Positions 6,577 to 58,152 of a DNA stretch of 64,000 nt are shown piece after piece. The notes beneath the pieces are model-generated. The model saw only the letters and a list, made by a program, of their open reading frames with translations, searched no databases and was not told where the DNA came from. Each line of letters begins with the position of its first letter. The first letter of the stretch is position 1. Made by a program: the position numbers and the translations under genes. The DNA comes from Lucinisca nassula (taxonomy: Eukaryota > Mollusca > Bivalvia > Lucinida > Lucinidae). The stretch spans positions 114,362,766 through 114,426,765 of the forward strand of contig OY757011.1 in NCBI GenBank assembly GCA_963580285.1, read 5' to 3'.

Positions 6577-9004
6577 ATCAGAATCAGAATTGTTACTGGT
6601 GACACGTCAAATGACATTCATACACCAGGACCTGTAATGTGGGAAGTTAGTCCCTAGCTCTAACCAAAGAGGTAAATTTAGCTACACAATCATAAGCACC
6701 TTCAGCTGTCGAGATAATCGAATCGGGAAGGGCATTCCAATCTCTAATGGTTCTGGGGAAGAACGACTCTTTATAAATGTCGGTTCTTGCGCTAAGGGTC
6801 TGAAACGCCAACGAATGGTGATTTCTACAGTGTCTAGCTGGGGGAACAAGGTCATCTGTTGGAATGCTGGCAGCACCCTTTAGACCTTTGTATAAAAGGA
6901 TTAGCCTACTGTCTTTTCTCCTTTTCTTGAGAGGCTCCCATTTTAATTTTCCAAGTATTCCAGTCATGCTCCCAGTTTCAAAGCAGTAATTGCCTGTTAC
7001 AAATCTAGCAGCTCTATTCTGAACTTTCTCAATTTCATCATTAAGGACCACTCCACTGGGGTCCCAGATACAACTACCATATTCCAAGATTGGGCGAACA
7101 AGACCTTTATATGCTGCCTCTTTTACATCCTGAGGGCACTGATGAAGATTTCGCCTCAGGAAACCAAGCGTTCTATTTGCCTTAGTACACATGCTGCTAA
7201 TATGAGTATTCCATCTCAAGTTGTGTGAGATTGTCACTCCAAGGTATTTAATGGAGTCCACATTTTCGAGGACCGTTCCCTCTAAGGTGTAAGAAGCCTC
7301 AACTTTATTAGATCTCTTCCTGGTTATCTGCATAATATTGCATTTAACTGGCTGAAATCTCATGCCCCATTTACGTGCCCAACATCCTAATCTATCTATG
7401 TCAGCCTGAAGTTTCAATGAGTCATCTGTATCTCTAATTTCCCGGTAACAAACACAGTCATCTGCGAACAGTCTTATTTCTGAGTCAATGTCAGTGGAAA
7501 TATCATTGATGTACAGGGAGAACAAAAGTGGACCAAGAACGGTCCCTTGCGGGACTCCAGACAAAACTGGAGCCCACTCCGAAGATTCATCATTAACAAC
7601 AACCCGCTGTTTTCTGTAGCAAAGAATGGAATCTATCCATTTGAGGGTCTTTCCCCCTATTCCATAACCAAATAACTTAGATTTAAGTAGTTCATGAGGA
7701 GGGGTGTCAAAGGCCTTCTCGAAGTCCAGAATAAATGTGTCCACCTGTCCCCCTTTGTCCAAGATTTTTGCCCAGTCATTAATAACTGTGCTTAGCTGAG
7801 TTTCACAACTGTGCCTTTTCCTAAATGCATGTTGCCTGTCTGACAAAAGTTTATGCTCGTCCAAGTGGGCCATGATGTTTGAGCAGACTATATGTTCCAG
7901 CAATTTACACAGAACACAAGTCAGAGACACAGGGCGATAATTACGGGCAAGAGCCCTATCTCCTTTTTTGAAGAGTGGACAGATGTTTGCTAAGAGCCAT
8001 TCTTTGGGGATTTCACCCGTATCAAGAGACTGTTGAAACAAGTGTGCGAAAACTGGACCCAACTCATTTGCTAGTTCCTTCAGGACCCTGGGATGAAGCT
8101 CATCAGGTCATAAGGCCTTACTGGGGTTTAAGCCTTGAAGTAATTTGATCACTCCTGCAGCTGTCACAACAATATTATTCATGAATGGGGCCAATCTTCC
8201 AGTCAATGGAACCTCCGTGAACTCAGTTTTATTAAACGCATCATTGAATTGACCAACTAGTTCCTCTGCCCTTTCAGAGTCTGATTCAGCAACCCCGTTC
8301 CCTCCTCTTTTATTAAGGGGCGGGATGCCTTGCCTGTCTTTCTTCTGGCTATTAATATATCTGTAGAAGTCTCTGGGATTTGCCTTTACATCACCTACCA
8401 AGTTATTCACATACAAATCATGCTGATTTTTTATATCAGTCTTGATTTCACGTCTCAAGTTTTCAAATTTTGTCCGGAGATTACCACTTCCCGTCTTTTT
8501 TGCCTTTGCATGAATCTTATTCCTTCTGCGAATTTTCCTTCTTATCTCTGGAGTGATCCAGGGAAAAGAAGATACAGGCCTACTAGTTTTTGAGGGGATA
8601 TGATTTTCGGCCGAAGCATGAATGAAAGAAGTTTTCAAATCAAAATTCTCTTGTATAGACCGAGCATCTGAATGACCATTAAAGTAATTCTCCTTTGCAA
8701 ATCTGAGTGCACCCTTCCTCATAGTTTCATAGTCACCTTTCTGATATGAGTACACCTTCCTCCGAGGTTTCTTTATTGGTGGGATGTGAATTTTTAAATA
8801 TCCGGAGACAACATCGTGGTCACTTAGTTTATCTGGGGAATGAATGTCTTCGAATTGTCCTGGCAAAGTCGTAAAGATCAGATCCAATGTGTTCTTATCA
8901 CGAGTGGGGAAGTTAACAATTTGTTCAAGGCCATGATCGTTCATAATGTCAATCAATATTTGTCCTTCCGACTGACTCAGCATTGTGCCTTGTTTGCTGA
9001 GCCT
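6577..9004 (-). mobile_element. 5'-truncated non-LTR retrotransposon (LINE)
   Basis: On the minus strand this holds the end of an endonuclease domain, a full reverse transcriptase and a short 3' UTR ending in repeats of TTCTGA (GTAACAATTCTGATTCTGAT), a microsatellite-type tail. It is truncated at the 5' side inside the endonuclease. The RT resembles the CR1/L2/Jockey group; the clade is not decided here. A second piece with the same C-terminus and tail lies at 47319-47935. GCCTCGA (6570-6576) and GCCTGTCGA (9001-9009) may be an imperfect target-site duplication. Confidence 0.9.
6647..8983 (-). pseudogene. LINE ORF2: endonuclease C-terminus plus reverse transcriptase
   Basis: The reading frame runs from 8983 to 6647 in one frame, broken only by a TGA at 8110-8108 inside KAL*PDELHPRVLKEL, where a glycine codon is expected. 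Upstream are the last endonuclease motifs (NTLDLIFTTLPG and KLSDHDVV, with the catalytic SDH). Downstream are RT motifs in order: PVSLTCVLCKLLEHIV, AFRKRHSCETQL, FILDFEKAFDTPPHEL (catalytic Asp), SGVPQGTVLGPLLFSLYIND, IRLFADDCVCY (catalytic Asp pair intact) and SIKYLGVTISHNLRWNTHIS, then a C-terminal region ending FTSLVRARD. The start is missing because the copy is 5'-truncated. With one nonsense change in about 780 codons the insertion is young, but it is not mobile by itself. Confidence 0.93.
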
Positions 9005-9142
9005 GTCGAAGAGGCGGTTCTAACGAGTACCACAATCTATATTTGGAGCAGAAATAAGAAAAATATCACAATTTTTCATCTAAAAATCGATTTTTGGGAG
9101 GTAAAGTTTACAATGTATTAGTATAGGCGTGTTTTCGTATTG
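9005..9142. mobile_element. MITE family A, right half (split by LINE)
   Basis: It resumes with GAGGCGGTTCTAACGAGTAC and ends TATAGGCGTGTTTTCGTATTG, completing the copy begun at 6434. Confidence 0.9.
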
Positions 9143-13347: not shown

Positions 13348-14178
13348 TTGAAGCAAATCAGTTTTGTGGGTATTCCGATGGGTACGAATTGCGCAACTCT
13401 TGTGGCTGATCTGTTCTTATATTGTTATGAAAGAGACTTGATGTTTTCAATTTTCATTGATAACCAATCTGAAAATATTGAAGCTTTTAGTTCTATTTCT
13501 AGATATTTAGATGATGTATTAAATATTGACAATACTTACTTTGATGGTTTGATCAGTCAGATTTATCCCCTAGAACTTCAGTTAAACAAGGCAAATTCCT
13601 CTGATACCGTGGCTCCCTTTTTGGATTTACATTTATCTATTGTAGATGGATTTGTTTCTTGAAAACTTTATGATAAACGTGATGATTTTGATTTCGAGAT
13701 TGTAAATTATCCTTTTTTGGACGGTGATGTTCCTCGTGCGACATCGCACGGGGTTTATATTTCGCAGTTAATTCGATTCGCTAGAGTGTCTAGTCATGTA
13801 TCCGACTTCAACACTCGTAATAAATTATTAACCGCTAAACTTCTTAATCAGGGTTATCGGTATCATAAACTACATACAGCCTTTTCTAAGTTTTATAGAC
13901 GTCATTCTGATTTGGTTTCAAAATTCAATGTTGGACTTAAAACACTTCTACAACATGGCCTATCGGAACCCAAATTCTATGGTGACTTAGTATATAAATT
14001 TAGACAAATACATGCCTGTAATGACTTGAGTACCCAATTTCGTAAAATCGTTCCTCGATATATAAAGATTGGGTACAACATAAATGTTATAAAACAGACT
14101 GCATGCATGGTGGTTAACCCCATCACGGTTGGCAATTTTGCTTCCCTCTTTGATTGCACACCGGTGGGTCGGGCTTAA
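13348..14178 (+). pseudogene. Penelope-like RT, C-terminal half, one nonsense codon
   Basis: The frame begins inside the RT at VGIPMGTNCATLVADLFLYC and continues with RYLDDVLNIDNTYFD (catalytic Asp pair), QIYPLELQLNKANSSDT, PFLDLHLSIVDGFVS, a TGA at 13660-13662, then KLYDKRDDFDFEIVNYPFLD, HGVYISQLIRFARVSSHVSD, KLLTAKLLNQGYRYHKLHTA and QTACMVVNPITVGNFASLFD, ending GRA. The two parts are in the same frame, and the homologue at 41836-42725 has Cys at the stop. The protein ends soon after the thumb-like region; no GIY-YIG nuclease follows. The N-terminal half is absent (5' truncation at about 13360). Confidence 0.92.
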
Positions 14179-17884: not shown

Positions 17885-18127
17885 GAAATAGATCAGCTCT
17901 AACTGTGATTTGTTGAGTAATAAATCACAGTTTGGAGGTCAGTTGTAAAGTAGACAAATCACGAGCGCGTAGCGCGCGTGATTTGTCTACTTACAACTGA
18001 CCGACTGGAGGTCAGTTGTAAAGTAGACAAATCACGAGCGCGTAGCGCGCGTGATTTGTCTACTTACAACTGACCGACAAACTGTGATTTATTACTCAAC
18101 AAATCACAGACTAGAGCTGATCTATTT
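17885..18127. repeat. Nested foldback with two tandem 68-bp palindromes
   Basis: Outer arms AATAGATCAGCTCT and AACTGTGATTTGTTGAGTAA recur inverted at 18085-18127. Between them sit two direct copies (17936-18003 and 18009-18076, 73 bp apart) of a palindrome whose arms read AGGTCAGTTGTAAAGTAGAC and AAATCACG, around a GAGCGCGTAGCGCGC centre. One extra base in the right arm (CTTACAACTGACC versus GGTCAGTTGTAAAG) is the only asymmetry noted. CAATCACAG-type text near 18362-18395 may be a third, decayed outer arm. Confidence 0.92.
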
Positions 18128-40590: not shown

Positions 40591-40789
40591 CATCGTTATG
40601 TAACCAGCAGGCAGGGTGCATGTATTTGTTCAGGAGACAGAGTGCTTCAAACAGGCTATGCCAATGCTGAAGCCGACGCTGACGGAATCCATACCAAACA
40701 CAAAATGTTTCCTCTTCTCTTTGGTGAAGGGGGTTGGATAACAACAACAAGCATTAAATTGTTGACGAGATAGAAAACTAACCAAAGTA

Positions 40790-41350: not shown

Positions 41351-43345
41351 TTACGTTGGAGCCGTCATAGAATCTGAGGCTTGACCCACCGGCGTGCAAT
41401 TAAAGAGGGAAGCAAAGTTGCCAACCGTGATTGGGTTAACTACCATGCATGCAGTCTGTCGTATAATATCCATGTTGTACCCAATCTTTTTATATCGAAG
41501 AATGATTTTACGAAATTGGGTGCTGAAGTCATTGCGGTTATATATTTTTCTGAACTTATATACTAAGTCACCATAAAATTCGGGTTCCGATAGACCTTGT
41601 TGCAGAAGAGATTTAAGTCCAATATTGAATTTTGAAATTAAATCAGAATGGCGTCTAAAAAATTTTGAAAAGGCTTTGCGTAGTTTATGGTACCGATAAC
41701 CCTGATTAAGGAGTTTAGCCGTTAATAATTTATTACGAGTGTTGAAGTCAGTTACATGACTACACACTCTAGCAAATCGAATTAATTGTGAAATATAAAC
41801 GCCATAGGATGGCGCACGAGGAACATCACCATCCAAAAAAAGGAAAATTTACAATCTCAAAATCAAAGTCATCGCGTTTATCATAAATTTTGCACGAAAC
41901 AAATCCATCTACAATAGATAGATGTAAATCCAAAAACGGGACCTCGGTATCAGAAAAATTTGCTTTATTTAACTGAAGTTCTAGGGGGTAAATCTGACTG
42001 ATCAAACCATCAAAATAGGTATTATCAATATTTAATAAATCATCTAAATATCTAGAAGTAGAGCTAAAAGCTTCAATAATTTCAGATTGGTTATCAATGG
42101 AAAGCGACAAAATGAAGTCTCTTTCAAAACAATACAAGAACAGATCAGCCACAAGAGGTGCGCAATTAGTACCCATCGGAATACCCACAATTTGTCTAAA
42201 TAACTTAGTACCGAATCTAATATAAATATTGTCAAGTAGAAAGGTGAGGGCATCACACACTTTCTGACATGACCAAAGTGTATAATTCTTATGCTCTTTA
42301 GAAGTGAAAAATGCATTTCTGACATTACATGCAAGATAGAGAGAATCTTCTCTGTGAAAAGCCCATTCAATTAAATCATTAAGCTTTTCTTTTATAAGAT
42401 TATGAGGAAGTGTAGTGTAAAGAGTGGAAAAATCGTAGGTAGACAGACTAGAAACACGAAAATGTCTAGATTTCAATTTATTTAAAACCTCATTCGAATT
42501 TTTTATAGACCAAAACAGATTTCTTCCTGATCTTTCAAAGACTTTATCACAATATTTAATCACCTGCGTTTTAATAGCGGTAAGACAGGAAGTTAATAAT
42601 TTAGAAAGTTCAGTGGTAGTGCAAGAGCTAGAATTTGCAATAAACCGTGCTTTGTAAGGTTTTTTATGAAGTTTTGGTAACCAGTATAGCGTAGGAAGCT
42701 TGTCTTGGCCTTCGTTAACACACACAGCAAACTTGGTGGCTGAAAGACAAACATGTTTATCTACTATAGCTCTCTCTCTTCAGCTAAAGGCTGAAGTTCA
42801 TAGGCTTCATAGGAAATCTTCCACTGACCGTTCCAAGGCGACTCTTCTGTGGCGATTTATTTATGTTGTTGTTTGTTACTTGCTGTTTGTGTCACTTGTG
42901 TCTTTTAATTTTGGATGGTAACTGTCCATATGGCCTTCCTTTGTTTAGGTTTCCATTATGGTCTGGTCGCTTAATGTTTGTATTTCTTTCCCTTTGGTGT
43001 CTTTTATGGATGGAGTAAGTTAATTGTATCAATTCCTGATCTTTGTTTTACTTCTACTTTAGTACCACCAAGCTCCTGCTTAAGCGTGTTAACATAGTGG
43101 AACCGTCACACAACGACGACGTTGTTAGCGCCTTGTCTGCAGGGGCCAAAACAAACTTCTTATGAGATTCTTGAATACCTAGTTTAAGATGACGTAAAGA
43201 CGTCTTGGGCTTAGGAGGTAATAAGTTAGTATTTTGAGAAAAGAAAGAAATGCGTTTATTCACTAGTTTTAAAATGCTAAGTTTCCAGTCCTTAGAAAGC
43301 TCATATATTACCTTGGCGTAATTCCTCTTGAATGCGTAAAATTAC
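41351..43345 (-). pseudogene. Penelope-like element reverse transcriptase ORF
   Basis: The most complete Penelope-like copy here. From about 43345 down: FKRNYAKVIYELSKDWKLSI, NTNLLPPKPKTSLRHL, KFVLAPADKA (family motif), then an insertion (42800-43062). The RT proper follows: TLYWLPKLHKKPYKARFI, STYDFSTLYTTLPHNLIKEK, QIVGIPMGTNCAPLVADLFL, SRYLDDLLNIDNTYFD (catalytic DD intact), VPFLDLHLSIVDGFVSCKIY. A one-base gain in a T-run at about 41836 (seven, against six in the 13.7-kb copy) shifts the frame before DGDVPRAPSYGVYISQLIRF, KLLNQGYRYHKLRKAFSKFF and NPITVGNFASLFNCTPVGQA. The protein stops at 41351 without a C-terminal GIY-YIG nuclease, unlike canonical Penelope. An N-terminal nuclease, as in Naiad-type elements, would lie beyond 43345, where homology stops. 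Confidence 0.93.
42800..43062 (+). mobile_element. Penelope-like 3' terminal block inserted in the RT ORF
   Basis: TCTTCCACTGACCGTTCCAA to GTTTTACTTCTACTTT lies inside, and opposite to, the RT frame, between the LAPADKA segment and the LPKLHK segment. It is a short 5'-truncated copy of the same family's tail, or the inverted junction that Penelope elements often carry. Confidence 0.85.
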
Positions 43346-47959: not shown

Positions 47960-48976
47960 TAGTCATTGGTGGATGATCGCCCTGTGAGATACGTCTTTAA
48001 AGAATGTCCCACACGTGTTCTATTGGGTTTAAGTCAGGAGAACGTGCCGGCCAGTCCATTACTTCAATAGTCCCACGATTAAGGTAATCCATGCACACTC
48101 CAGCAGTATGGGAGCGCGCATATTCCTGCATCAGAATGAAATTGTCACCGATTGCTCGATACCGTAATACAGTCAATGTACCTCCGTTTATCACGTACAA
48201 GTCCGTTCAGCCTGCATAAGAAATTTCACCCCATACCATCACTGACCCCCTCCATATATGTCTGTTGCCACAATTTTGCAGTCCTCGTATCGTTCTCCGA
48301 CTCGAACACGTCGATCACATGTACTCAGGTGAAAACTGCTTTCATCCGTGAACAGAACAGTACGCCGGTCTTGCAATCGCCAGTTCTGATGTTCTTGGGC
48401 AAACTCATATCGTCATGCACGATGTTGCCTGGTGAGAAAAAGCCATCTTGCCGGACGTCTGACCCTCAGATCACCTTCATGTAACCTTTTACGTATTGTT
48501 TGATCGGATATCCTTTGACCAATTGCATGCTGGAAATCGATTGGTAGCCTTCTGGCCATGTACTGCCAATTTCCTAGCGCTAGCTTTCGAAGATATTGCT
48601 CTTCCCTTTGTGACGTCATGCGGTGTTGGCCTTGCCCTTGTCGTCTAGAAAACTCGCCCGTCTCCTGGTAGCGTCTCCATAGCCCCGCAACAACACTTCT
48701 CGATACATCAAAGCGTTCAGCAACGATCCATTGGGTGTACCCACTTTCAAGCAAAGCGACAGCTTGGGCGACCTCAACTTCTTCCATGAACCGTCTAACA
48801 CCATATAAAGTCACTATGAAGCCCAAAATAGCGCCTAACCGAAGGATTGACATGTTTCTACTGATCCAAAACCCAAATTTTGAACAGATCGCCCCATACC
48901 GAATTTCAGCCTCCATGCTGTAGCTCACATTCTTGCTTTGCACGTGAACCTGGTTTCTTGACGTTTGCATGAACAT
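47960..48976 (-). pseudogene. Tc1-like transposase, broken
   Basis: From the high-coordinate end: VEVAQAVALLESGYTQWIVA and ERFDVSRSVVAGLWRRYQET (paired helix-turn-helix DNA-binding domain), RRQGQGQHRMTSQREEQYL, then a TGA after FLTRQHRA. In the next segment come TVLFTDESSFHLSTCDRRVR (first catalytic Asp), GGGSVMVWGEISYAG with a frame change, MQEYARSHTAGVCMDYL and VMDWPARSPDLNPIEHVWDI (third acidic residue). Tc1 proteins normally have Asp in the MQDNARPH position; here it is Glu. The C-terminus is disrupted by the LINE insertion. Not functional. Confidence 0.92.
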
Positions 48977-49369
48977 TGTTAAGAGATGTCACTTTCCTTG
49001 AGTTTGAAAATTGCCAAGGGTGATGTTATACGGGCTTAAAATTTGCTCCTTTAATTGTTTTGAGCAGTTTATTACACTATTCGTACAATGTAGGTGTCCT
49101 CATTAACTTAGATCTTTAACAACAACTTTAGTCTGCCTGAGCAATCAGATTTATTTCCATGCAAAGTATTAGTTACTAGTAAGTTCGAGCAGTGGTTTTC
49201 AATTACTGGATATCAGTATGTTACATGTCTCTGTAATGAAGTTGGGATTTCACGGATTACATTACTTTTTTTCTTATTTCTGTTCTAAAACAAAGGCCGT
49301 GTATACCCGTATGAGAGCCACCAACATATATATTGGGTCTGGGTCACCAATAAGACAGTTCAGTTTATT

Positions 49370-55339: not shown

Positions 55340-55620
55340 CTATTTTGCACAAAGCGACAAGCGCTGTGAGCTGCGTAAAACTAGTTGCCAGCCAATGGAA
55401 AGCGACGTTACGTGATCGGGTTTCCAACAGTATATCGCAAAATATTTACATTTCCAGTGTAAAGTCTAGTGTAAACCTATACAAAACAATTGCGTTCATA
55501 CTTCCATGAACGCATCGAATTACATGATTTTCAGTGACGTTAAGTGACGTCATTCTAAACCATTGTTCTCTACGGGCGTTGATGACGTCAACGCTGCTCC
55601 GCTCTTGGTAGAAAAACAGC
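55340..55620. repeat. Dispersed repeat (CAAGCGCTGTGAGCTGCG)
   Basis: GCGACAAGCGCTGTGAGCTG and GGAAAGCGACGTTACG recur at 61688-62050 (GCGGCAAGCACTCTGTGCTG, AAAGCGACGCTACC), where a MITE A copy has split them. TGACGTTAAGTGACGTCATT follows near 55535. Confidence 0.6.
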
Positions 55621-55720
55621 GTGTAAATGTTTTTTCAGCTTTAAAAGATTGCCCTACAAGCATTTTCCGCCCAGTGATGAGGGGCAAATAATGTAAATAT
55701 AAAAAATAAACTTACTTTTT

Positions 55721-55836
55721 CTGCTTTTCATGAAAGTATGAACGACAGTGGGTCGCTAGCAAAGTTTACATGAACCCCTTCGGGGTTCATTTACTTTGCA
55801 CGCGACCCACTGCGTTCATATTTCCATGAACTGCAG
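55721..55836. repeat. Hairpin repeat, ~50-bp arms
   Basis: CTGCTTTTCATGAAAGTATG AACG and AGTGGGTCGC, AAAGTTTACATGAACCCC are inverted on the far side (GGGGTTCAT, GCGACCCACTGCGTTCAT, ATGAACTGCAG). The loop is only TT. It is followed by ATACTGTCGCAAATTTTGGA, which recurs at 62065. Confidence 0.88.
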
Positions 55837-56068
55837 AAAAATAAATTTCATTTCTAAAATATACTGTCGCAAATTTTGGACGTTATCCAATCAGACGTCG
55901 CTTTACATACGCATGTGCGTTAGAGTTATCAATCAATCCAGAAAGTCGACGATAAAGCATACGTTTATGATACCGTTAAGCGTGTTTAAGAAGCTTAGCA
56001 GTAATGTGAAATAAAAATCAAAAATGAGTTCCTTTAAGAGCAACGAAAACATTCATAAGAAAGAAGAT

Positions 56069-56114
56069 GAGTCATACTACGTAGTTTCGGCTAATAAAGC
56101 CTCATCAGTGACTC
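56069..56114 (-). ncRNA. Type I hammerhead ribozyme, copy 1
   Basis: Minus strand, 46 nt. Stem I GAGUCA (56114-56109) pairs with UGACUC (56074-56069). The catalytic core is CUGAUGA (56108-56102). Stem II GGCU/AGCC has loop UUAUU, with the conserved G10.1-C11.1 pair. GAAA (56088-56085) follows. Stem III is ACUAC/GUAGU with no loop, a perfect palindrome as in minimal hammerheads thought to act as dimers. The cleavage base is A17 (56075), cutting between 56075 and 56074. All invariant core bases are present. Confidence 0.95.
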
Positions 56115-56451
56115 TGTAATGATCCGGCAAAGAAAGCCAGAGCGAACATACTGCAATTTTGCGAATTTCGAATAGGCAGTCGATACAAAGACTGATATAA
56201 ATCAAAATGGGGTCCAAATAATTAAAAACCTGTCTAGAATATGAGTCTAAACCAATAATTTAATTCTGATTTCTCAGAAAATTCACGCTGATCTCAAAGG
56301 ACGAAAAGTAAAATATAAACTGCACTATGGTTGATGTACGGGGAGACGTTTTACGGCCGCCACACGGCACAACACCAGCTGCAGTGAAGGCAAATAAAAA
56401 TCAAAAATGAGTTCCTTTAAGAGCAACGAAAACATTCATAAGAAAGAAGAT

Positions 56452-56497
56452 GAGTCATACTACGTAGTTTCGGCTAATAAAGCCTCATCAGTGACTC
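56452..56497 (-). ncRNA. Type I hammerhead ribozyme, copy 2
   Basis: Identical to copy 1, 383 bp further on; predicted cut between 56458 and 56457. Confidence 0.95.
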
Positions 56498-56834
56498 TGT
56501 AATGATCCGGCAAAGAAAGCCAGAGCGAACATACTGCAATTTTGCGAATTTCGAATAGGCAGTCGATACAAAGACTGATATAAATCAAAATGGGGTCCAA
56601 ATAATTAAAAACCTGTCTAGAATATGAGTCTAAACCAATAATTTAATTCTGATTTCTCAGAAAATTCACGCTGATCTCAAAGGACGAAAAGTAAAATATA
56701 AACTGCACTATGGTTGATGTACGGGGAGACGTTTTACGGCCGCCACACGGCACAACACCAGCTGCAGTGAAGGCAAATAAAAATCAAAAATGAGTTCCTT
56801 TAAGAGCAACGAAAACATTCATAAGAAAGAAGAT

Positions 56835-56880
56835 GAGTCATACTACGTAGTTTCGGCTAATAAAGCCTCATCAGTGACTC
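56835..56880 (-). ncRNA. Type I hammerhead ribozyme, copy 3
   Basis: Identical to copy 1; predicted cut between 56841 and 56840. Confidence 0.95.
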
Positions 56881-57217
56881 TGTAATGATCCGGCAAAGAA
56901 AGCCAGAGCGAACATACTGCAATTTTGCGAATTTCGAATAGGCAGTCGATACAAAGACTGATATAAATCAAAATGGGGTCCAAATAATTAAAAACCTGTC
57001 TAGAATATGAGTCTAAACCAATAATTTAATTCTGATTTCTCAGAAAATTCACGCTGATCTCAAAGGACGAAAAGTAAAATATAAACTGCACTATGGTTGA
57101 TGTACGGGGAGACGTTTTACGGCCGCCACACGGCACAACACCAGCTGCAGTGAAGGCAAATAAAAATCAAAAATGAGTTCCTTTAAGAGCAACGAAAACA
57201 TTCATAAGAAAGAAGAT

Positions 57218-57263
57218 GAGTCATACTACGTAGTTTCGGCTAATAAAGCCTCATCAGTGACTC
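57218..57263 (-). ncRNA. Type I hammerhead ribozyme, copy 4
   Basis: Identical to copy 1; predicted cut between 57224 and 57223. It lies in the partial fourth monomer, which still contains the complete ribozyme. Confidence 0.95.
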
Positions 57264-57369
57264 TGTAATGATCCGGCAAAGAAAGCCAGAGCGAACATAC
57301 TGCAATTTTGCGAATTTCGAATAGGCAGATTTCCGGGTGGCGAAGACCCTCGATCTTCTTGTTTCTTTA

Positions 57370-57580
57370 ACGTCGAAATCAAATTCGTTCCATTTGTTGT
57401 AAAAATTTTAACGAAATTATACAATTCGATATGGATAAATAGAAATCCAGAAAATGTGCTTCGGTATTAGAAGAATGAGTTTTAGTTAACAGAAGTTCAG
57501 TAGGATAAATCTGGCCAACCACTAGTTCAAAATAAACATTATCTATACTAATAAAACGATTAAGAAAAGGTAACATGTCA
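57370..57580 (-). pseudogene. Penelope-like RT fragment beside the ribozyme array
   Basis: NRFISIDNVYFELVVGQIYP, TELLLTKTHSSNTEAHFLDF and YLSISNCIIS match the post-YLDD region of the 41.8-42.7 kb copy (NIDNTYFDGLISQIYPLELQ ... FLDLHLSIVDGFVS). After a frame change the text FYNKWNEFDFDV continues the match to about 57378. The YLDD Asp pair itself is not preserved. The fragment is more diverged from the other copies than they are from each other, so it may be a second Penelope lineage. Confidence 0.8.
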
Positions 57581-57597
57581 CTTTAGAACAATGTATC

Positions 57598-58152
57598 ATG
57601 GTAGCAAGTCCGTGTGAATAACACCCCTATATAAACTCCATTCTTTTTAGAGAAACTGGGGTTTACCTGGACATACATTATTTTTTTATTATTATTTCTA
57701 TTCCAAGACTATGGTTGTGTGTACTCGTTTGTTTGATTTGATACTTAACGTCCCCGTCAACACTATAAAGGTCATTTTGGAGACGTTGCTTCAAATTTTG
57801 TGGGACTTTTACCCAACAGTGAGATGAAATGTCACCTCAAGCCCTGCCACCCATTGAAACGAATTGGGTTTATAAGCATGGACGGTCTGACTCGCCCTGC
57901 TTTGCCTTGGCAGGCTTAGATCCTCTAAGTGGTTTACCAGTACTCGTGTGCTGTCAGAGGAAACATCATGCAGCCCATTTATTTCTTCAAGCCCCAAAGG
58001 GCGGGGGCCGTGTGTCTACTTGTATTGAGGTGGTTCTAACGAACTTTGGAGAAAAAAAAAAGATAAATATCACACATTTTCATCAGAAACATACCGGTTT
58101 TGGAGATATGAAAGTATGCACTAAGACACACGGATGTGTTTTTGTGATATTT
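57598..58152 (-). mobile_element. MITE family B copy split by SINE-1
   Basis: The B end and hairpin (57598-57729) and the opposite B arm (58024-58152: TTCATCAGAAACATACCGGT, TTTGGAGATATGAAAGTATG, CACTAAGACACACGGATG) flank a SINE-1 copy at the position of the central palindrome. Confidence 0.85.
57717..58023 (-). mobile_element. SINE-1 copy inside MITE B, imperfect target duplication
   Basis: The SINE (57730-58009) is flanked by GTGTGTACTCGTT (57717-57729) and GTGTGTCTACTTGT (58010-58023), a diverged duplication of MITE B sequence. It has a CAAA tail at the low side and the GGCCCCCGCCC start at the high side. Confidence 0.85.

Follow-up and report, generated by a model that had tools for sequence, protein, structure and literature searches.

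The tandem array at positions 56009 to 57328 of the analysed DNA (the whole 64,000-nt stretch from Lucinisca nassula, referred to below as the window) is probably one insertion of a non-autonomous animal retrozyme, with a self-cleaved circular or multimeric RNA as its predicted intermediate, insertion by target-primed reverse transcription that begins at one fixed point inside the RNA and, most likely, a Penelope-like enzyme as the copying agent. It is an additional animal-type (non-LTR) retrozyme of a known kind: mussel retrozyme repeats of ~350-390 bp with type I hammerheads have been published (Cervera and de la Pena 2020, PMC7229834).

The hammerhead array

The following features, numbered by position in the window, are used below.

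56009..57328, minus strand: retrozyme array with 3.45 mismatch-free units of 383 nt (Tandem Repeats Finder, lag-383 self-match)
57158..57328, minus strand: partial unit, truncated on its 5' side, that forms the array's 5' end
57218..57263, minus strand: type I hammerhead 1, cleavage expected at 57224/57223
56835..56880, minus strand: type I hammerhead 2, cleavage expected at 56841/56840
56452..56497, minus strand: type I hammerhead 3, cleavage expected at 56458/56457
56069..56114, minus strand: type I hammerhead 4, cleavage expected at 56075/56074
56009..56074, minus strand: 66-nt 3' tail from the cleavage site to the shared 3' end, the putative start of reverse transcription (same end in 45 of 46 array blocks)
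41351..42779, minus strand: fragments of a reverse-transcriptase element that may have supplied the enzyme and has a U-run 3' end of its own near 40783

Tandem Repeats Finder reported a period of 383 with 3.4 copies and 100% match at 56009-57328, and self-comparison at a lag of 383 runs through 56009-56945 without a single mismatch. Because the latter match begins at 56009, the array start moves there from the 56011 given by the first-pass annotation, whose right end at 57328 was correct. The unit is 383 bp long with a GC content of 0.379. None of the stop-to-stop frames contained entirely in the array exceeds 60 aa, in line with the earlier description of an ORF-less, non-autonomous element; no LTR was found, nor any direct repeat longer than 21 nt beyond the array in 55400-58000. 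To the left of the array lies a long imperfect MITE-like palindrome (55712-55846), for which Rfam gave weak sub-threshold microRNA matches on both strands. Elsewhere in the window, two perfect 73-bp tandem palindromic units (17933-18078) and a Tc-like transposase fragment (48413-48988, minus) were seen.

The four type I hammerheads had been recognized before on one strand, at 383-bp spacing and with an intact core, and were recovered here as identical minus-strand 46-mers with all core bases present. Stem I has 6 bp (GAGTCA/TGACTC) and stem III is the self-complementary palindrome ACUACGUAGU, both as originally described, while stem II has 4 bp (GGCU/AGCC). Cleavage is expected after A17, and the positions predicted from the located 46-mers are those proposed earlier, including 56074/56075. 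An Rfam search with hammerhead models, as advised by the first-pass annotation, was only partly affirmative: there was no match in the whole window at the gathering score, and a 2-kb search gave four minus-strand Hammerhead_3 matches below it (25.1 bits vs 48.5; E 0.017 each). Rfam alone would not carry the hammerhead claim, since none was listed at E up to 0.5 in four loci with the same hammerheads (L030, L019, L039 and L015; 16.7 kb). Using a loose descriptor, only the four array hammerheads were found in the window, with 1 hit in 60 Markov sequences. The strict descriptor likewise found 4, with 2 hits in 400 Markov sequences of the window's composition, making a chance motif unlikely, and the pairing kept in relatives makes the case against chance stronger. 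On the plus strand, no hammerhead was found by descriptor, and other ribozyme classes were checked via Rfam at the gathering score only. A hammerhead pattern had 0 matches in viral contigs, and a search with peptide patterns yielded 45 stretches, none confirmed. On contigs C1-C4, units whose cleavage base is T or G are also arranged in tandem, although a G at this position should block hammerhead cleavage.

In a single copy, stem III contributes little: its hairpin alone is predicted at +1.5 kcal/mol, and the catalytic fold at -9.6 kcal/mol compared with -9.2 kcal/mol without stem III. The best single-copy fold (-10.4 kcal/mol) differs from the catalytic one, and forcing the hammerhead costs 0.8 kcal/mol. 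For two molecules, the double-hammerhead cofold is predicted at -35.1 kcal/mol vs -10.4 kcal/mol for one copy. A weak stem III with a palindromic loop is also found in newt and axolotl satellite retrozymes, for which dimeric activity has been shown and which match the double hammerhead predicted here in this respect, whereas the unit is a different one and stem III here is nearer to HHR_Amex2 and invertebrate forms (PMC7229834). As a circle, the minus strand folds with a z-score of -2.6 (1 of 100 shuffles as low) and the plus strand with an unremarkable -0.1.

Fetched DNA from related loci contained 94 family-A hammerheads, the family of the window's array, and 10 from a second family, B, in 29 distinct variants, 24 of which were aligned and 5 left out as truncated or shifted. 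With a structure derived from the same sequences, 96.9% of 360 cells were paired across the 24 variants, and 14 cells were changed on both sides compared with a shuffled mean of 4.2; in both measures 0 of 500 shuffles were as high. One pair per helix is changed on both sides, including the palindrome centre (CG to GC). The number of such pairs (3) is not above shuffles (269/500 as high), and two of the three may be single events, given the split between families A and B; the number of pair types (8) is not above shuffles either (474/500 as high). Across 40 loci, only two hammerhead sites carry a minor base in at least three loci, and these are the partners of one stem I pair, with none in the core. 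In the 77 copies with the four main types, this pair is G-C (41), G-U (18), A-U (10) or A-C (8), a loose link, and 8 of the 94 family-A hammerheads carry the A-C combination in stem I as main type. Changes per site amount to 0.0147 in the hammerhead, 0.006 in its core and 0.0159 elsewhere in the unit, so the hammerhead as a whole is not better conserved (Fisher p 1.0, variant sites shared between loci).

Genomic copies, their ends and their insertion sites

In the 2.93-Gb genome (696 contigs), a 21-nt tail pattern gave 20,432 matches and its backward control 0. The genome-wide search recommended by the first-pass annotation, made here with the tail pattern, showed a dispersed retrozyme. Using the 60-aa chance frame across the hammerhead as a protein-collection probe, 861 of 901 candidates matched at E 0.001, and among the matches listed (at least 120) all came from ENA contigs. 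Peptide conservation of this frame was rejected as support for the ribozyme, as it does not single out the ribozyme core. The loci characterized are the best-scoring 40 of 1,728 candidates and not a random sample.

Oriented as RNA, 40 of the 43 array blocks stop at unit position 382 or 383. Array ends were taken from fetched DNA only, because the genome-search rows '1-50' and '334-383' look clipped. Two of the other three are sub-blocks of a chimeric locus, L030 (leaving them out gives 40/41), and one, L021, is a true exception ending at position 272. Because the first query began at the shared-end position, the search was repeated with a query starting at the cleavage site. This yielded 11 further loci, and all five that were fetched end at 382-383. 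In total, 45 of 46 array blocks share a 3' end 66 nt past the cleavage site, where two L014 arrays that may not be independent are counted apart. The 5' ends vary between unit positions 3 and 363 and are spread over the unit (KS p 0.13); 11 of 43 fall inside the hammerhead (p 0.0008), an excess looked for post hoc and including three L030 blocks. An array that exceeds one unit spans the cleavage junction, and its template must therefore have had this junction intact, as in a ligated circle or an uncleaved multimer. Within loci, units diverge by a median of 0.52% (35 pairs from 18 loci, including pairs between the two L014 arrays) vs 2.87% between loci (780 pairs). The identity of the window's units had initially been taken as a sign of recent amplification. 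Given the shared 3' end, the variable 5' ends and the low divergence within loci, a single insertion of a copy that was already multimeric accounts for it better than local amplification afterwards.

Joined array flanks match paralogous empty sites, 17 of which were usable. The base before the 3' junction is T in 15 of these, and the last two bases are TT in 11, against a TT frequency of 0.114 in the window. This count leaves out L030, a self-match (18 sites, T in 16 and TT in 12 if included), and the first L014 array, which was filtered out and whose empty site has a C before the junction; L014.1 and L040 were scored as non-T by gap placement, though TT adjoins the junction. Near the junction, empty sites differ by at most 18 nt lost or 8 nt added, paralog divergence included. 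The TT before the 3' junction suggests short homology with the target. There is no sign of target-site duplication, since in 40 arrays the two flanks of a locus have no more in common than shuffled flanks do (mean 2.45 vs 3.01; 296 of 300 shuffles as high).

One array, L017, begins exactly at the cleavage site after 1.17 units, although at least one such start among 45 arrays has a chance p of 0.11. We also sampled genomic tails with a preceding base other than A (471 tails; 40 of 100 listed were fetched, skipping near neighbours). Here, 7 of 40 tails have the cleavage site itself as their first position, with unrelated DNA adjoining, a figure without matched control that was obtained from the script's 11 unique rows by removing four by eye (L088 and L116 as one-base insertions, L099 and L114 as array-internal). 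By our rough estimate, one or two would be expected from uniform truncation (~10,000 loci, 1 in 383).

Starts of this kind in the seven tails and L017 are expected for run-off at a cleaved 5' end, and they favour a template that was a linear read-through multimer of an older array and not a circle. The within-locus divergence of up to 2.9% in L010 and L025 and of 1.8-1.9% in L033 and the second L014 array points the same way. We nevertheless consider a linear template the somewhat doubtful option, as units are identical in the window array, L009, L031 and L047 and published work describes retrozyme circles as abundant in mussel (PMC7229834).

For the preferred retrozyme insertion, each hammerhead of the minus-strand transcripts would be expected to cut its own RNA, perhaps in double-hammerhead form with the palindromic stem III as the link. 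RNA that had circularised, or that was still multimeric, would then serve in target-primed reverse transcription from one fixed site 66 nt downstream of cleavage. Priming would presumably take place at the U-run paired with a nicked T-run target, of which the shared end and the T-run are seen in the genome. Copying would make about one to four passes, around a circle or along a multimer, and stop at varying places, carried out most likely by a Penelope-like enzyme.

A second family, a chimera and A-to-G copies

Family B has a 261-nt unit with the hammerhead GGGTCACTGATGAGGCCTAATTGGCCGAAACTAGCTAGTC|TGGCCC. Compared with family A, it has a 5' module in common at 79% and the hammerhead region at 84%. 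Four of six fetched B arrays (L078, L080, L081 and L082) end at ATATTT, while L079 ends 7 nt short and L083 elsewhere. Ten further B copies were encountered incidentally, and as judged by eye eight of them stop at this ATATTT end, the exceptions being L024, which breaks off earlier, and a copy in L019 that runs into a partial next unit. The shared end of family B lies about 86-88 nt past the cleavage site, and support for a tail common to A and B is no more than moderate, as 20 of 2,000 shuffles reach the same score. In L030 (G000:C12:114242000-114246100), three B segments, consisting of hammerhead and tail, lie at 492-nt spacing inside a family-A array. This chimera would be best read as a result of template jumping between A and B RNAs. 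Two family-B copies were also seen head to head at L040:3153-3490.

Two copies in the tail sample differ from the family by A-to-G changes alone on the ribozyme strand. All 12 changes within 89 nt of L121 are of this type, as are all 14 within 50 nt of L122, out of 15 As and with the upstream part requiring gaps to align; in each of the two, one of these changes is the base used to select the sample. In L086, all 4 changes in 50 nt are A-to-G, but others lie further upstream, giving 3 A-to-G out of 8 changes in 88 nt with the selected base excluded; in L108, the figure is 3 of 5. In these four copies together, As were changed in 3 of 16 cases after a 5' G vs 30 of 50 otherwise, and such a 5' neighbour bias is that of ADAR enzymes. 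In L122, the changes hit the ribozyme core. A family-B copy (L022:3322-3501) has 9 A-to-G out of 17 changes. Copies rich in A-to-G look rare, since in 66 full units, where A-to-G accounts for 56 of 412 changes, none has more than five; the selected tail sample itself gives no frequency. Clustering on the ribozyme strand suggests that ribozyme-sense RNA underwent editing before it was reverse transcribed. In the mussel paper, RNA editing is given as one possible cause of sequence heterogeneity (PMC7229834). Among titles and starts of abstracts listed in open-access literature searches, none was seen that reports retrozymes with shared ends or with edited copies.

The candidate enzyme and competing readings

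The window holds two broken copies (13663-14178, plus; 41351-42779, minus) of a reverse-transcriptase element that is very abundant and terminates 3' in a U-run; we take the latter copy to be Penelope-like by its motifs. Pfam returned no family for either set of pieces and a weak RVT_1 match in 3 of 6 relatives, and a PDB sequence search gave weak hits that were taken as chance (best rotavirus VP4, E 0.006). As judged by eye, the element ends at the U-run in 16 of 20 places. The window's element has no hammerhead of its own and shares only the U-run 3' end with the retrozyme. The family-B hammerhead at L019 was considered as part of the element, and this reading was dropped because 16 of 20 places end at the U-run and L019 alone has a hammerhead after it. 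Among the relatives of the reverse-transcriptase frame listed (at least 120), two lie in bins of Candidatus Thiodiazotropha, which are symbionts of lucinid clams. In L009, the 3' flank of the array is directly a piece of the reverse-transcriptase frame, near the frame position where the copy in L044 starts (by eye). No autonomous Penelope-like element with this hammerhead and tail was seen in the fetched DNA and the window.

The 2020 study proposed tandem cDNA synthesis on circular RNA and regarded Penelope-like elements as a strong candidate for mobilisation (PMC7229834), while a review of the same year stated that retrozyme repeats hold no conserved motif from which to deduce the autonomous element (PMC7761336). 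The closest comparison is PAc, a Penelope-like element of Anolis, for which the fixed internal start points of reverse transcription in vitro fall 111-118 nt into the frame, the hammerhead cut lies 26 nt into it and ATT targets are preferred (PMC11167929). By our arithmetic, its start thus lies about 85-92 nt past the cut, a geometry similar to the 66 nt in family A and about 86-88 nt in family B. PAc and the array have in common a hammerhead in a tandem element, a fixed internal start downstream and AT-rich (ATT) targets, here judged from genomic ends only. In contrast to the non-coding array, PAc encodes its enzyme, and it starts at a non-homologous site whereas the 3' end of the array looks like microhomology with target Ts (PMC11167929). 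The latter difference weakens the Penelope-like reading and strengthens that of an ordinary LINE. As the reverse transcriptase and GIY-YIG endonuclease encoded by Penelope-like elements are absent from the array, it may work like such an element but is not one.

It is rather unlikely in our view that the same retrozyme used the reverse transcriptase of an ordinary LINE (CR1/Jockey/RTE type). A fixed 3' end, 5' truncation and target microhomology are general to target-primed reverse transcription and would fit such an enzyme, and LINE-type frames are present in the window at 6647-9019 (minus), with a PF00078 reverse transcriptase and an endonuclease below the Pfam cut-off. However, target-site duplications do not exceed the control, and the tail position past the hammerhead and the T-run or ATT-like targets resemble those of PAc. 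We keep the Penelope-like enzyme as the most likely one.

A plain satellite with an incidental hammerhead, multiplied through unequal crossing-over or on extrachromosomal DNA circles, would account for perfect head-to-tail repeats, but dispersed small arrays with one shared 3' end, paralogous empty sites, A-to-G clusters on one strand and the pairing kept in the ribozyme make it very improbable. The same low standing applies to a viroid-like RNA replicon with accidental DNA copies, which agrees with the small non-coding unit, the ribozyme and a predicted fold better than shuffles, but not with the 20,432 genomic matches or with a descriptor search that found hammerheads on one strand only. Of the RNA replicon and the retroelement offered as alternatives at the outset, the replicon is not needed and a non-autonomous retrozyme-type retroelement is retained.

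The array shares with metazoan non-LTR retrozymes the type I hammerhead, a tandem unit within 170-400 nt, low GC (38% here) and the lack of LTR and ORF (PMC7229834). It also falls within the description of tandem repeats of about 150-450 bp with low GC and many dispersed copies. Target-site duplications of more than 4 bp, optional by the wording of that paper, are absent here above control (PMC7229834). The shared 3' end, the target Ts, the lack of duplication above control and the A-to-G copies are added here, in a comparison with published monomers by description only. Plant LTR retrozymes are likewise hammerhead-bearing non-autonomous retroelements but have a type III hammerhead, LTR, PBS and PPT and a 4-bp target-site duplication (PMC7229834, PMC7761336).

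In a wider reading, to which we assign about even chances, animal retrozymes carry a Penelope-like tail signature and are copied in Penelope fashion from a fixed site round circles without target duplication, their RNA is partly double-stranded and A-to-I edited before insertion, with the ribozyme edited out of action, and the 383- and 261-nt families and their chimera reflect template jumping. If this is true, the genome stores fossils of edited ribozyme RNA. Such A-to-G fossils would reveal from DNA alone the strand of the RNA intermediate and its double-strandedness. A common 3' end lying a constant distance beyond the ribozyme, together with target Ts and no target duplication, is a signature that makes the enzyme question directly testable.
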